Part shown: positions 36,155 to 61,456 of the stretch, one piece after another
How positions within the stretch are numbered: the first letter of the stretch is position 1
How the letters are laid out: every line of letters starts with the position of its first letter
Assembly (NCBI RefSeq): GCF_000312545.1
Contig: NZ_HE997542.1
Coordinates: 158,095-222,094 of the forward strand
Source of the DNA: Bartonella senegalensis OS02
GTDB taxonomy: Bacteria; Pseudomonadota; Alphaproteobacteria; Rhizobiales; Rhizobiaceae
DNA: 64,000 nucleotides
Direction of reading: 5' to 3'
The notes under the pieces: generated by a model
Told to the model about the DNA's origin: nothing
What the model saw: only the letters and a program-made list of their open reading frames with translations
The model's database searches: none
Translations under genes and position numbers: made by a program

Positions 36155-36337
36155 CAAATGCTCCTTAAATGCTATAAAAGCTTTCATTAACCTTGGCTTA
36201 TTATTACTTTTTATCTACTTTATATAATCATTTCATTTTCATGAACCGTTTAGATATTCTGTTTTGGGTGCATTTTTCAAGAAAATTGCACTACTTTTTA
36301 AAAATCAATTCTTAAAGATTAATGATTGCGATGTAAA

Positions 36338-37498
36338 ATGATTGTAAAACGTCGATATTTTGATCATAACGCGACAACACCGCTTAAGAAGACGGCGCAG
36401 TTGGCATTACTGGAATCTTTAGAGATCTTTGGTAATCCCTCATCCGTTCATACCGAAGGACGTGCTGCTAAAGCTTTATTACAAAAAGCACGTCGACAAA
36501 TCGCTAAAAGTCTCAATACAAATCCAGATCATGTTGTATTTACGTCTGGTGCGAGTGAAGCAGCCATGACTTTATTAACGCCCTTTTATAATATGGGAAG
36601 CTCTAAAATTCAATTTTCTCATCTTTACATTGGAGCTACTGAACATCCATCTGTTGCTGAAGGCGGACGTTTTCCAAAAGAATACATGAGCACAATTGCT
36701 GTTGATCAAGATGGACTTATTCAACAAGATAAATTAGTCTCTCTTTTAAGCCTTCACAATAAAACAAAGGGACTTCCTCTTGTTGCTATTCAAGCCGCAA
36801 ATGGTGAAACAGGTGTTATGCAACACATAAAAGAAATAGCTGCTATTGTGAGGGATTCTGGAGGTATCCTTATTGTTGATTTGACACAATATATAGACAA
36901 AAATTTTGTTGATATTCATCAGATGGGAGGAGATTTTTTTATACTGTCTGCACATAAAATTGGCGGACCTAAAGGAATTGGTGCTTTTGTTGCATCCGGG
37001 AACCTTTTGATGCCACATCCTCTTATTGTTGGAGGAGGGCAAGAAAAAGGTTTGCGTGGAGGAACAGAAGCATTGCCGCTTATTGCTGCTTTTGGGGCTG
37101 CAATAGCTGATTGCTACAACCAAGAAGAGATAAAGCAATTGCTCTCTTTACGCCATAAATTAGAGGATGGAATACGGAAAATATGTCATGATATTGAAAT
37201 TTTCGGCAAAAGAGTTCAGCGTTTACCAAACACAACTTATTTCACTGTGCCCGATATAAAAGCTGAAACTTTGCAAATCAGTTTCGATTTGGCAGGATTT
37301 TCCGTATCAGCAGGCTCTGCTTGCTCTTCAGGAAAAGTAAAACAAAGTCGCGTCTTAGAGGCAATGGGATATCATGTTCCACATGGTGCAATCCGCATTT
37401 CAATAGGACGATGCACAACTTCCAAAGATATTGATGATTTTTTATTGTTTTTTTCTCAAATTATAAATAAGAAAAAAGGTGAAGTTTATAAAAATTAG
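36338..37498 (+). CDS. Cysteine desulfurase (class V aminotransferase, NifS/IscS type)
   Basis: PLP enzyme of 386 residues that takes sulfur from cysteine for Fe-S assembly. The N terminus YFDHNATTPL, substrate-binding TSGASEA, PLP-binding Lys in SAHKIGGPKGIGA and the catalytic Cys loop SAGSACSSGK (class I, short loop with SSGK) are all present. It heads the suf cluster, and a second desulfurase (SufS type, class II) ends it; having one of each is usual in Rhizobiales. ATG 36338 is preferred to the in-frame TTG at 36326. Confidence 0.92.
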   Translation: MIVKRRYFDHNATTPLKKTAQLALLESLEIFGNPSSVHTEGRAAKALLQKARRQIAKSLNTNPDHVVFTSGASEAAMTLLTPFYNMGSSKIQFSHLYIGATEHPSVAEGGRFPKEYMSTIAVDQDGLIQQDKLVSLLSLHNKTKGLPLVAIQAANGETGVMQHIKEIAAIVRDSGGILIVDLTQYIDKNFVDIHQMGGDFFILSAHKIGGPKGIGAFVASGNLLMPHPLIVGGGQEKGLRGGTEALPLIAAFGAAIADCYNQEEIKQLLSLRHKLEDGIRKICHDIEIFGKRVQRLPNTTYFTVPDIKAETLQISFDLAGFSVSAGSACSSGKVKQSRVLEAMGYHVPHGAIRISIGRCTTSKDIDDFLLFFSQIINKKKGEVYKN

Positions 37499-39208: not shown

Positions 39209-39964
39209 ATGTTAGAGATAAAGGATTTACGTGCCCGTATTGTTGGGACCGATACAGAGGTTATTCGTGGTTTAAACTTGACTGTTGCAGATGGTGAGGT
39301 TGCTGCTATCATGGGGCAAAATGGGGCTGGAAAGTCTACCTTGTCTTATTTGCTCGCTGGTCGTGATGATTATGAAGTAATAGATGGCGATATCCTTTAT
39401 AATGGACAATCACTTTTAGAAATGGATCCAGCAGAACGTGCCGCATATGGTGTTTTTCTTGCATTTCAATATCCAATGGAAATACCTGGGGTAGCAATGA
39501 TGGAATTTTTAAAAGTTGCAATGAATTCTCAACGCAAAGCGCGTGGTGACCAAGAGCTTAAAATTCCTGAATTTATAAAATGTGTTAAGGAAATTTCTTC
39601 CAAACTTGAAATAGATATGGATATGCTCAAACGTCCGTTAAATGTAGGCTTTTCAGGTGGAGAAAAAAAACGAGCTGAAATTTTACAAATGGCACTTCTT
39701 GAACCTAAACTTTGTATTTTAGATGAAACGGACTCTGGTTTAGATATTGATGCACTAAAAATTGTTGCAGATGGTGTCAATAAGCTGCGTGATCCAAAGC
39801 GTTCATTTTTAGTTATTACGCATTATCAACGGCTGCTTAATTATATTATTCCTGATACAGTGCATGTTCTTTATAAAGGACGCATTATTAAAAGCGGAGA
39901 TAAATCATTAGCGCTTTATTTAGAACAGAACGGATATGCTGATCTTATCAGACAAGCGGCTTGA
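39209..39964 (+). CDS. sufC: Fe-S cluster assembly ATPase SufC
   Basis: ABC-type ATPase of the SufBC2D complex, 251 residues. Walker A MGQNGAGKSTLS, SufC-type signature GFSGGEKKRAEILQM, Walker B CILDETDSGLDIDALKI and switch His in VITHYQRLL. ATP binding by the SufC pair opens the SufB-SufD interface for cluster building. Tandem ATGs at 39206 and 39209; the AGGA at 39197-39200 is better spaced for the second. The gene ends 11 bases before the sufD-sufS start. Confidence 0.97.
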   Translation: MLEIKDLRARIVGTDTEVIRGLNLTVADGEVAAIMGQNGAGKSTLSYLLAGRDDYEVIDGDILYNGQSLLEMDPAERAAYGVFLAFQYPMEIPGVAMMEFLKVAMNSQRKARGDQELKIPEFIKCVKEISSKLEIDMDMLKRPLNVGFSGGEKKRAEILQMALLEPKLCILDETDSGLDIDALKIVADGVNKLRDPKRSFLVITHYQRLLNYIIPDTVHVLYKGRIIKSGDKSLALYLEQNGYADLIRQAA

Positions 39965-39975
39965 GGTCATCAAAT

Positions 39976-42498
39976 ATGAATGTAAATTCGCAACAAGAAT
40001 TGTTAACGGTTGAAGAAGAGATACTTGGTAATTTCAATCGGTGTGTGAACAATTTACCTGGCGATAAGACGGTGCAAGAAGTCCGTAAAAAAGCTATTGA
40101 ATTGTTTCAGACCTCAAGACTTCCTTCACGTAAAATAGAAAATTGGCACTATACTAATTTGCGCACATTATTAAAATCTGTGAGTCATTTTTCACCAGAA
40201 AATAATGGGCAATTAGTTGACAGATTACTTTCAGAAAGTCACGTATTTTCCATTGAAAACGGTAAAACACTTACATACTCAGACATATCAGGTGTTACAG
40301 TAAAACGTCTTGCAGAGGAGCTGGAAAGAAATTGTGCAAAAATAGATGATGTCACTGCTGATGAAGACTTTATTGGACAATTAAATACAGCTTTTGTTAC
40401 GGATGGCTGGCTTTTTCATATTCCTGAAAATACAAAATTAAATATTCCTATTGAATTACAAAATATTCAAATGGGTGGGCAATCTCACACCTTTTCCGAT
40501 ATAAAAGTCGATAAAAACAGTCAAGCTGTGTTTGTTGAACATCAGATTGGCAATGATAAAGAGACCTTTATCAGTTCGATATTTTCATTAGATGTTGCAG
40601 CTTATAGTGATGTTACATGGATTCTCATTCGCAATCGTGGCTTTGATTCTACACAGTTTGGTAAATTTCGTGCTGTCCTTAGTCAAGGTGCTAAATTATC
40701 GCTTTATGTGATTAATATAGGTAGTCAACTTAATCGTCAGGAAATTGATGTTGAATTACAGGGAGAAGAGTCTGACTTTCAATTACGGGTCATCAATTTG
40801 CTCTCAGGACAAACACACAGCGATCTTACGATGACTGTTCGTCATGTTGAAGAAAAATCAACTTCAACCGAAATTGTACGGAATGTGGTTACGGATAAAG
40901 CCGTTGGTGTGTTTCAAGGGATAATACGTGTTGCTCAAAAAGCTCAAAAAACAGATGCTCGCATGGCTTGTAATAGTCTCATTCTTTCGGATGATGCAGA
41001 ATTTAATGCAAAGCCTGAACTAGAAATTTTCGCTGATGATGTTGCATGTGGTCATGGCGCGACGGTTGCTAATATTAATTATGATCATCTTTTTTATCTC
41101 ATGGCACGTGGTATCCCTTTTACAACTGCTCGTGGTCTTTTAATTAGAGGATTTGTTTCTGAGCTCATTGATGACATAAAGCAGGAGAATATCCAGACTG
41201 TTTTGGGAAAGATCATTGGCAAATGGTTAGAAAAAATGTTTAAGGTAGAGGAAATGGAAAATAACGTACAGACATTAAGTTATAATGTAGAAGAAATTCG
41301 ACGTGATTTTCCCCTTTTGCATCGTGATGTTTATGGAAAACGATTGGCTTATCTTGACAGTGGCGCTTCTGCACAAAAACCGCAATTAGTGCTTGATGCA
41401 ATGAATGATTGCTATCGACACAGTTACACCAATGTGCATAGAGGGATGTATTTTTTAGCAAATGCAGCAACACAATCTTATGAAAATGCCCGTGAAACAG
41501 TTCGTACTTTTTTAAATGCTCAAACAGCTAGGGAAATTGTTTTTACAAAAAATGCAACAGAAGCTATTAATACTGTTGCCTATGGTTGGGCTATGCCGAA
41601 ATTAAAGGAAGGTGATGAAATTGTTCTAACTATCATGGAACATCATTCAAATATTATTCCTTGGCATTTTCTTCGTGAACAAAAAGGTGTTAAGCTGGTT
41701 TTTGTCCCTGTTGATGAAAATGGTGTTCTTCATATTGAAGATTTCGAAAAGGCTTTAAACGAAAGAACACGGCTTGTTACTCTTACTCATATGTCCAATA
41801 TATTGGGAACTATACCTCCTATTAAAGAAATTATTAAACGAGCGCATCAAAATGCTATTCCTGTTCTTGTTGATGGTTCCCAAGGAGCTATACATTTAAC
41901 AGTTGATGTGCAAGCTCTTGATTGTGATTGGTATGTTTTTACCGGTCATAAGCTTTATGGTCCTACGGGTATTGGTGTTCTTTATGGTAAGGAACATAGG
42001 CTAGAGGAAATGCATCCTTTTCAAGGGGGCGGGGAAATGATCGAGGATGTGACAATTGATAAAGTTTCTTATAATGCTCCTCCTTACCGCTTTGAAGCGG
42101 GAACTCCCCCTATAGTTGAAGCTATTGGATTGGCTGCTGCTATTGATTATATGCAAAAGAAAGATCGAAAAACAGTTCATGCACATGAAATGGAACTTTT
42201 GACTTATGCACATGAAAAACTGAAAACCATTGACTCATTACGTATTTATGGTCACTCTCCTGATAAAGGGGCTATTATATCATTTGCAATTGAAGGTATT
42301 CATCCACATGATATTGCAATGTTTGTAGATAGAAAAGGGGTCGCTATCCGGGCAGGAACGCATTGTGCACAGCCTTTATTACAACGCTTTGGTTTAACAT
42401 CTGTTTGTCGTGCATCATTAGCTATGTATAATACCTATGAAGATATTGATCAGTTAGTAGAGGCATTAAAGGAAACAAGGACATTTTTTAATGGCTGA
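39976..42498 (+). CDS. sufD-sufS: SufD-SufS fusion (Fe-S scaffold subunit plus cysteine desulfurase)
   Basis: A single open frame of 840 residues joins two proteins normally encoded separately. Residues 1 to about 425 are SufD: KIENWHYTNLRTLL near residue 50, then the SufB/D beta-helix core with the C-terminal CGHGATVANINYDHLFYLMARG. Residues from about 427 are SufS: RRDFPLLHRDVYGKRLAYLD, PLP Lys in VFTGHKLYGPTGIG, and catalytic Cys in RAGTHCAQP with a class II loop. No stop separates them; the junction reads LEKMFKVEEMENNV. An ATG at 41254 with AGAGGA upstream could still start free SufS inside the frame. Loss of one base next to a former stop (TTTAAGG for TTTTAAGG) would explain the fusion. 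The start is ATG 39976, with GAGG about 9 bases upstream. Confidence 0.88.
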   Translation: MNVNSQQELLTVEEEILGNFNRCVNNLPGDKTVQEVRKKAIELFQTSRLPSRKIENWHYTNLRTLLKSVSHFSPENNGQLVDRLLSESHVFSIENGKTLTYSDISGVTVKRLAEELERNCAKIDDVTADEDFIGQLNTAFVTDGWLFHIPENTKLNIPIELQNIQMGGQSHTFSDIKVDKNSQAVFVEHQIGNDKETFISSIFSLDVAAYSDVTWILIRNRGFDSTQFGKFRAVLSQGAKLSLYVINIGSQLNRQEIDVELQGEESDFQLRVINLLSGQTHSDLTMTVRHVEEKSTSTEIVRNVVTDKAVGVFQGIIRVAQKAQKTDARMACNSLILSDDAEFNAKPELEIFADDVACGHGATVANINYDHLFYLMARGIPFTTARGLLIRGFVSELIDDIKQENIQTVLGKIIGKWLEKMFKVEEMENNVQTLSYNVEEIRRDFPLLHRDVYGKRLAYLDSGASAQKPQLVLDAMNDCYRHSYTNVHRGMYFLANAATQSYENARETVRTFLNAQTAREIVFTKNATEAINTVAYGWAMPKLKEGDEIVLTIMEHHSNIIPWHFLREQKGVKLVFVPVDENGVLHIEDFEKALNERTRLVTLTHMSNILGTIPPIKEIIKRAHQNAIPVLVDGSQGAIHLTVDVQALDCDWYVFTGHKLYGPTGIGVLYGKEHRLEEMHPFQGGGEMIEDVTIDKVSYNAPPYRFEAGTPPIVEAIGLAAAIDYMQKKDRKTVHAHEMELLTYAHEKLKTIDSLRIYGHSPDKGAIISFAIEGIHPHDIAMFVDRKGVAIRAGTHCAQPLLQRFGLTSVCRASLAMYNTYEDIDQLVEALKETRTFFNG

Positions 42499-42976: not shown

Positions 42977-44613
42977 ATGGGTTATAATAAACAAAAATTA
43001 GAACTCACTTGGATTGGAAAAGAAAGACGTCCAAAACTTGAGCCCCATATTTTATTGGAAGATTTTGAAAAATCTTATCACGCTCCGCATCAAATATCTG
43101 TTGATGATATTTTTGATAATAAACTCATTTTTGGTGATAATTTACTCGCTCTCAAATCTCTTGAACAAGAATATACAGGGAAGATAAAATGTATCTACAT
43201 CGATCCACCTTATAATACAGGCAATGCATTTGAACATTATGAAGATGGTCTAGAACATTCCTTATGGCTAAGCCTTATTTATGAGAGACAGGTTGGAACT
43301 ACTCCATCGTTTACTTGCAGATGATGGGAGTATTTGGCTTAATCTTGACGATAGTGAATCACATTATGCTAAGGTTATATGCGATGAAATTTTTGGGCGT
43401 AAAAATTTTATCGCAAATGTTATATGGCAAAAAAAGCATACACGTTCTAATGATAGTCGATGGTTGAGTGATAACCATGATCATATATTAATTTTTGCTA
43501 AAAATAGAGATTTTTGGAAAAGAAATCTTCTTCCACGTAATGATAATAACAGCAAAAATTATTCTAATCCTGATAATGATCCTCGTGGCATTTGGGCATC
43601 AGGCCCCTGTCATGTTAAAACTCCAAATCTAAAGGATATATATGAGATCATTACTCCATCTGGTCGTAGAGTAATGCCTCCAGTTGGAACTAGCTGGCGC
43701 TTTAGCAAGAAAAAAATGAAGGAATTAATTACTGATAACAGAATTTATTTTGGACAGAATGGCGATAACATCCCACGCTATAAACGTTTTAAAACAGAAG
43801 TGCAAGATGGCTTAGTACCAATCACGGTTTGGTTAAAAGAAAAAGTCGGACATAATCAAGAAGCAAAACAAGAAGTCAAAAAATTTAACTCTGAAGATGT
43901 TTTTTCAACACCTAAGCCGGAGCGGTTAGTAGAGAGAATTTTAACTATTTCTACCAATCCTGGTGATCTTGTATTGGATTCTTTCGCGGGTTCTGGGACT
44001 ACCGGTGCCGTTGCTCATAAAATGGGGCGCAATTGAACTTGGTGAGCATTGCCATACCCATATTATTCCTCGTTTGAAACAGGTGATCGATGGCACTGAT
44101 CAAGGAGGTATTTCTAAAAATGTCAATTGGCAAGGTGGTGGGGGATTTCGCTATTATCGCCTTGCGCCCTCTCTATTACAAAAAGATCCATGGGAGTAAT
44201 GGATTATTAGTCGCCAGTATAATGCTGCTATGCTTTCAGAAGCTATGTGCAAACATATGGGCTTTACCTATGCACCTGATGATAATCATTATTGGATGCA
44301 AGGATATTCAAGCGAAGCAGATTATATTTATGTGACAACAAACGCTATGACACATGGACAACTACGTGTTATCAGTGAAGAGAGGTTGGACCTCATCGTA
44401 CTTTGCTTATTTGTTGTGCAGCCTTTGATACAAAAGCAGAATCTTTTGAAAATCTAACACTTACCAAAATCCCTCGTGCTGTATTAGAAAAGTGCGAATG
44501 GGGGAGGGATGATTACAGTTTAAATGTAGCGAATCTTGAATCCAATGGCTGTAGTAAAAGAATCTTCAAGAGATAAAGATATTGTACAAGCAGAGTTAGA
44601 TTTATTTCGGTGA
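42977..44613 (+). pseudogene. Broken type III-like DNA methyltransferase (Mod)
   Basis: The sum of the frames matches a beta-class N6-adenine/N4-cytosine methyltransferase of about 540 residues: catalytic DPPYNTGNAF comes first, near 43200, and the AdoMet-binding DSFAGSGTTGAVAHKMG near 43990. It is not translatable as one protein. I see a 4-base insertion before MRDRLELLHRLLADDGS (43277-43281), a frameshift near 44030, an in-frame TAA at 44197-44199 (DPWE*WIISRQYN), a frameshift near 44383 and another near 44550 before the last stretch VVKESSRDKDIVQAELDLFR. Five lesions mean the gene is dead. No restriction (Res) subunit is visible, so this is a decayed restriction-modification locus. Confidence 0.9.
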
Positions 44614-60743: not shown

Positions 60744-61456
60744 ATGCTGACTCGTCAACAATATGAGCTCCTTTTGTTCATTAACAATCATATGAAAGAA
60801 ACAGGCGTTCCCCCCTCCTTTGATGAAATGAAAATTGCATTAGAACTTACTTCAAAATCTGGCATTCATAGATTGATTACAGCCTTAGAAGAAAGGGGCT
60901 TTATACGCCGTTTGCGAAACCGTGCTCGTGCCGTGGAAGTTGTGCGACTTCCCGAAAAAATAACATTTAACCTTTCTTCAGCACGTAAAATTTCCCCTAG
61001 TGTAATAGAGAATCATAAAAAAAAATATCAAATGATTCCGATAATCTTGATAATTTGAATTTAAAAGATAAAAAAAACAGCATTATTCCCGTTATGGGCC
61101 GCATTGCTGCTGCTGTACCGATTTCCGCTATACAGCAACAGATAAAGACCCTTTCTTTGCCACAAGATATGATGAGCTTTGGTGAACATTATGCCCTAGA
61201 GGTCAAAGATGATTCTATGATTGAGGCTGGGATTCTAGATAAAGATATGATCATTGTTAGACGTCAAAATACAGCAACACCAGGCGAAATTATTGTTGCA
61301 CTCATCGATAATGAAGAAGCAACCATCAAACGTTATTGGCGTAAAGGGATCTCTATTACATTGGAAGCTGCAAATCCACACTATGAAACACGCATCTACA
61401 GACCTGAGCGTGTACAGATACAAGGTAAGCTTATTGGACTTATTCGCAAATATTAA
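60744..61456 (+). pseudogene. lexA: LexA SOS repressor, frameshifted
   Basis: Two frames together give a full LexA. The first (60744-61058) has the winged-helix domain ([58 protein letters not shown]). The second carries the S24 peptidase domain (from [16 protein letters not shown] to [11 protein letters not shown]). They are out of register at a run of nine A residues (61017-61025); ten would restore the frame ([12 protein letters not shown]). The catalytic Ser (DDSMIEAG) and Lys (ATIKRYW) are present. However, the autocleavage dipeptide Ala-Gly reads Ala-Ala (RIAAAVP), and the conserved GDSM is DDSM. Probably a decaying repressor, unless polymerase slippage at the A run rescues it. Confidence 0.85.

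Follow-up and report, generated by a model that had tools for sequence, protein, structure and literature searches.

Does this organism make SufD and the cysteine desulfurase SufS as one polypeptide, or do the two genes only appear to be joined? In the window (the whole 64,000-nucleotide stretch of Bartonella senegalensis OS02 DNA that was analysed, which contains no N and is identical to bases 158095–222094 of contig C3 in the assembly), an open frame of 840 residues runs on the forward strand from 39976 to 42498 through both sufD and sufS; an upstream TTG at 39961 is also a possible start, which would give 845 aa. Pfam matches were found to SUFBD_core at residues 175–393 and to Aminotran_5 at residues 459–827. 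Both halves belong to their NCBIfam families: residues 139–408 scored 253.5 bits against sufD TIGR01981 (cut-off 222), and residues 440–838 scored 588.5 bits against the SufS family TIGR01979 (cut-off 475.1). In agreement with the latter assignment, the SufS half carries TGHK at residues 656–659 and RAGTHC at 792–797, which we take to be the sites of the PLP lysine and of the catalytic cysteine, respectively. A sequence-only reading of this DNA had described a single frame holding a full SufD and a full SufS with their catalytic residues, and on this point it was right. The features on which the question turns are the following:

39976–41235, forward strand: SufD part (residues 1–420, the stretch used as SufD query; most relatives align over 1–420)
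41231–41236, forward strand: run of six A's, seven in the two closest relatives, G023 and G024 (junction comparison)
41241–41243, forward strand: old sufD stop TAA, now out of frame (sequence and junction comparison)
41247–41252, forward strand: AGAGGA, likely ribosome-binding site of sufS (sequence; role presumed)
41254–42498, forward strand: SufS, beginning at an ATG of its own, as it does in relatives (NCBIfam TIGR01979, Aminotran_5 and junction comparison)

The two genes fall into one frame because the A run is one base shorter here than in G023 and G024; the junction reads GTTTAAGG, not TTTTAAGG. No linker separates the two parts, the join being made of bases from the former stop region, and the separate start region of sufS has not been lost: AGAGGA and the sufS ATG, which now lies inside the joined frame, are both retained, and the TAA is still readable out of frame. 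The earlier suggestion of a one-base loss at the old stop was thus correct in part, since such a loss does explain the join, but the difference lies in the A run and the stop codon itself is intact. The same reading had pointed to an internal ATG at 41254 with an AGAGGA site, and both elements are indeed present. Production of free SufS from this internal start is plausible, in which case the start would simply be the ordinary sufS start of the relatives.

To place the junction in its genus, we searched 71 Bartonella genomes, the window's own included, with the protein, and read the sufD–sufS junction in each of them. The fused form was found in 1 of the 71, the window's own, and none of the 70 other Bartonella genomes shared it. 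In these 70, the sufD frame stops near the end of SufD or, in a single genome (G008), 48 bases later within sufS. This comparison, one of the checks that had been proposed for the locus, returned separate or other-frame genes in 70 of 70. It also supports the accompanying caution that an error or a strain-specific event had to be excluded, as the join is explained by a one-base loss and recurs in 0 of 70 other Bartonella genomes. Compared with the suf operon of Bartonella and other Alphaproteobacteria, in which sufD and sufS are separate genes (PMC2946596 gives the operon order), the locus has the same gene order, complete domains and a retained old stop and sufS start; it differs in that the one-base-shorter A run of this assembly puts both genes in one frame.

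Two junction loci of the genus showed peculiarities of their own. In G008 (L064), sufD lacks its usual stop, continues for the 48 bases mentioned above and overlaps sufS in another frame. In another Bartonella genome, G042 (L074), it is sufS itself whose frame is broken, beyond approximately residue 257 of the aligned portion.

Most likely (probability roughly 0.78), the 840-residue chain is an artefact produced by the undercall of one base in the A homopolymer at the 3′ terminus of sufD; the base would have been lost in sequencing or assembly, not in the cell. Three direct observations underlie this reading, namely the sequence difference itself, the absence of the fusion from the 70 other Bartonella genomes and an excess of one-base losses in contig C3. 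On this reading, the living cell would carry sufD and sufS side by side as two genes, sufD closed by a stop and sufS preceded by its own ribosome-binding site and starting at its own ATG, in line with the other Bartonella genomes compared here, and it would make the scaffold subunit SufD and the desulfurase SufS as the usual separate proteins. The join is in any case most likely something ordinary: a sequencing error in the first place, otherwise a recent one-base deletion. The locus matters mainly as a warning, as a single homopolymer base is enough to produce a clean fusion of 840 residues in which both catalytic halves are intact.

The excess of one-base losses comes from a comparison of contig C3 (272,738 bases) of the window's genome (G000) with 400 kb of sequence from each of G023 and G024, in which the ORFs of one relative that were whole in a second genome were looked up in the third. 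With G000 as target, 199 of 215 ORFs were whole, 8 were frame-broken and 8 fell into other categories. The corresponding figures were 220 whole, 0 frame-broken and 7 other among 227 ORFs for G023, and 220, 2 and 3 among 225 for G024. Both frame-broken cases in G024 derived from the G000 ORF list, one being the SufD–SufS frame itself and the other a doubtful ORF of 112 residues. The contrast between 8/215 and 0/227 gives a Fisher p of 0.003, which serves as a guide, the sets being non-independent. All eight frame-broken G000 ORFs showed a one-base loss relative to both relatives, and five of these losses lie in or beside A/T runs. LexA and RNase R were recognised among them above the NCBIfam cut-offs, and a probable CckA reached 891.6 bits, under its cut-off of 1000; at least two of the eight, of 121 and 167 residues, are questionable genes. 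An 'FtsK-like' label for one of the frame-broken genes proved to be wrong, as NCBIfam points to CckA, albeit below the cut-off. The lexA break lies within the window, at about 61009–61032 in an A run, and the gene is a single frame in G023 and G024.

A second count considered those G023 ORFs of at least 150 residues that could be aligned in all three genomes (165 of 250, the other 85 being dropped for low cover or N). Unpaired frame breaks were found in 9 genes of G000, in none of G023 and in 4 of G024. The nine breaks of G000 comprised seven losses and two insertions. Four of them are situated deep within their genes (CckA, RNase R, LexA and a 429-residue protein), whereas the other five fall within roughly the first 50 codons of ORFs that were called mechanically, possibly upstream of where translation really begins. 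Of the four broken genes of G024, two are affected near the called start and two contain several indels. Overall, conserved genes of contig C3 show the excess of one-base losses that was taken as the mark of homopolymer error in an assembly.

Besides the doubtful ORFs, the near-start breaks, the two insertions and the breaks in G024 already described, further results do not speak for an error. When homopolymers of six bases or more were compared under a strict requirement for identical flanks, we found no bias towards loss among the 69 runs of G000 (one shorter and one longer), and each relative showed 0 changes among 67 runs. Moreover, the completeness of the window's genome is put at 100% and its contamination at 0.31%. 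A/T runs of eight or nine bases occurred at 28.1 per 100 kb in G000 and at 34.0 and 41.0 per 100 kb in the relatives for the same lengths, as descriptive figures; neither of these homopolymer comparisons tips the balance.

An unlikely reading, though one with evidence in its favour, is that the deletion is real and recent in this strain or species, and that a fused SufD–SufS is made and tolerated, probably alongside free SufS initiated at the internal ATG. A/T-rich runs are likely places for a one-base mutation, each half still matches its family, and the start site of sufS is retained. Real changes in homopolymer length have also been described in Bartonella: the accessible portion of PMC11466379 reports one-base changes in A9 and G9 runs, in an adhesin gene of passaged B. 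krasnovii, and an A8–9 run in gmk that varies in length among isolates. Because such changes do occur in the genus, a true one-base deletion keeps some probability here. Against it stand the absence of the deletion from all 70 other Bartonella genomes, the one-base losses in other housekeeping genes of contig C3, and the length of the run, which at six or seven bases is shorter than the nine-base runs found to change in that study. The mononucleotide-repeat contingency loci of Bartonella, as presented in the same portion of PMC11466379, resemble the present case in that the reading frame is altered when an A run gains or loses one base; however, their runs are of about nine bases and lie mainly in surface, secretion or unknown genes, whereas here six bases stand against seven in a housekeeping operon. 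Should the deletion be real in the lineage, a tethered 95-kDa chain accompanied by free SufS would be, as far as the literature searched shows, the first bacterial SufD–SufS fusion described, possibly reversible through one-base changes of the A run, an outcome that we consider improbable. A real join would offer a natural test of whether a tethered desulfurase feeds the SufBCD scaffold with SufE still present.

We regard as very improbable an evolved SufD–SufS fusion in which sulfur is channelled from desulfurase to SufBCD scaffold and SufE is bypassed. The continuous frame with two complete domains would fit such a fusion, and SufD joined to SufS has already been reported, in the SufDSU protein of an oxymonad protist. 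Fused SufDSU is named for Monocercomonoides in the available text of PMC7980591 and for Preaxostyla in that of PMC10703272, and the part of PMC6006210 at hand describes a SufS-U fusion in Monocercomonoides. To judge by its name, SufDSU likewise has SufD and SufS in one chain, but it is eukaryotic and also carries SufU. Similarly, the SufCB fused gene of Blastocystis, Pygsuia and Stygiella (PMC6857552, in the section available) places two SUF components in one chain, but the components are others and the fusion is common to several lineages, whereas SufD–SufS is an event of one genome. No bacterial SufD–SufS fusion was found in the literature searched.

Nor did a wider search bring one to light. 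We ran the SufD–SufS protein against 385 genomes from the class and 398 from the phylum, two sets that overlap and both include the window's own genome. Among the matches listed, and besides the window's own, both domains were spanned in 18 rows for the class and 16 for the phylum. All 34 of these carry at least one stop, which may lie anywhere within the match, and none of the matches listed for class or phylum, other than the window's own, spans both domains free of stops. We also inspected 20 loci with long frames around SufS as suspects and found no intact fusion: in 13 of them the two domains share a frame yet belong to separate ORFs, in 6 they are in different frames, and for the remaining one (L170) no SufD match was found. 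The fusion was seen in a single assembly, and between its two parts there are only bases of the former stop region, without a linker. In addition, the genome has a separate SufE gene (contig C1 of G000, 242134–242505), which argues against a bypass; a NifU_N-domain gene is found on contig C5. Neither the proposal that tethering channels sulfur nor the idea of one gene evolved for two products finds support, given the single assembly, the similar one-base losses in other conserved C3 genes and the separate SufE.

Equally slight is the probability that a programmed frameshift, or slippage of the transcript, takes place at the A run throughout the genus and yields the fusion in all species. In its favour, seven A's are the longest run at the sufD end in 36 of the 71 genomes (six in 7, including the window's own, and other lengths in 28), and the stop follows the run. 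Against it, sufS does not keep one frame relative to sufD: it is +1 in 34 genomes, the same with an intervening stop in 28, the other frame in 8 and fused in 1, and a single shift would join only part of them. Because this frame relation varies across the genus, a conserved recoding signal is absent, and conserved recoding at the A run was rejected.

Two neighbours of the suf genes in the window deserve mention. Just downstream, a DNA-methyltransferase-like gene at 42977–44036 consists of two overlapping frames, 42977–43324 and 43281–44036, and the matching regions of G023 and G024 are fragmented as well; the putative function is read from the sequence. Upstream of sufB, a second cysteine-desulfurase-like gene at 36326–37498 gave a tblastn-type match to the SufS half, and would by its sequence be of the NifS/IscS type.
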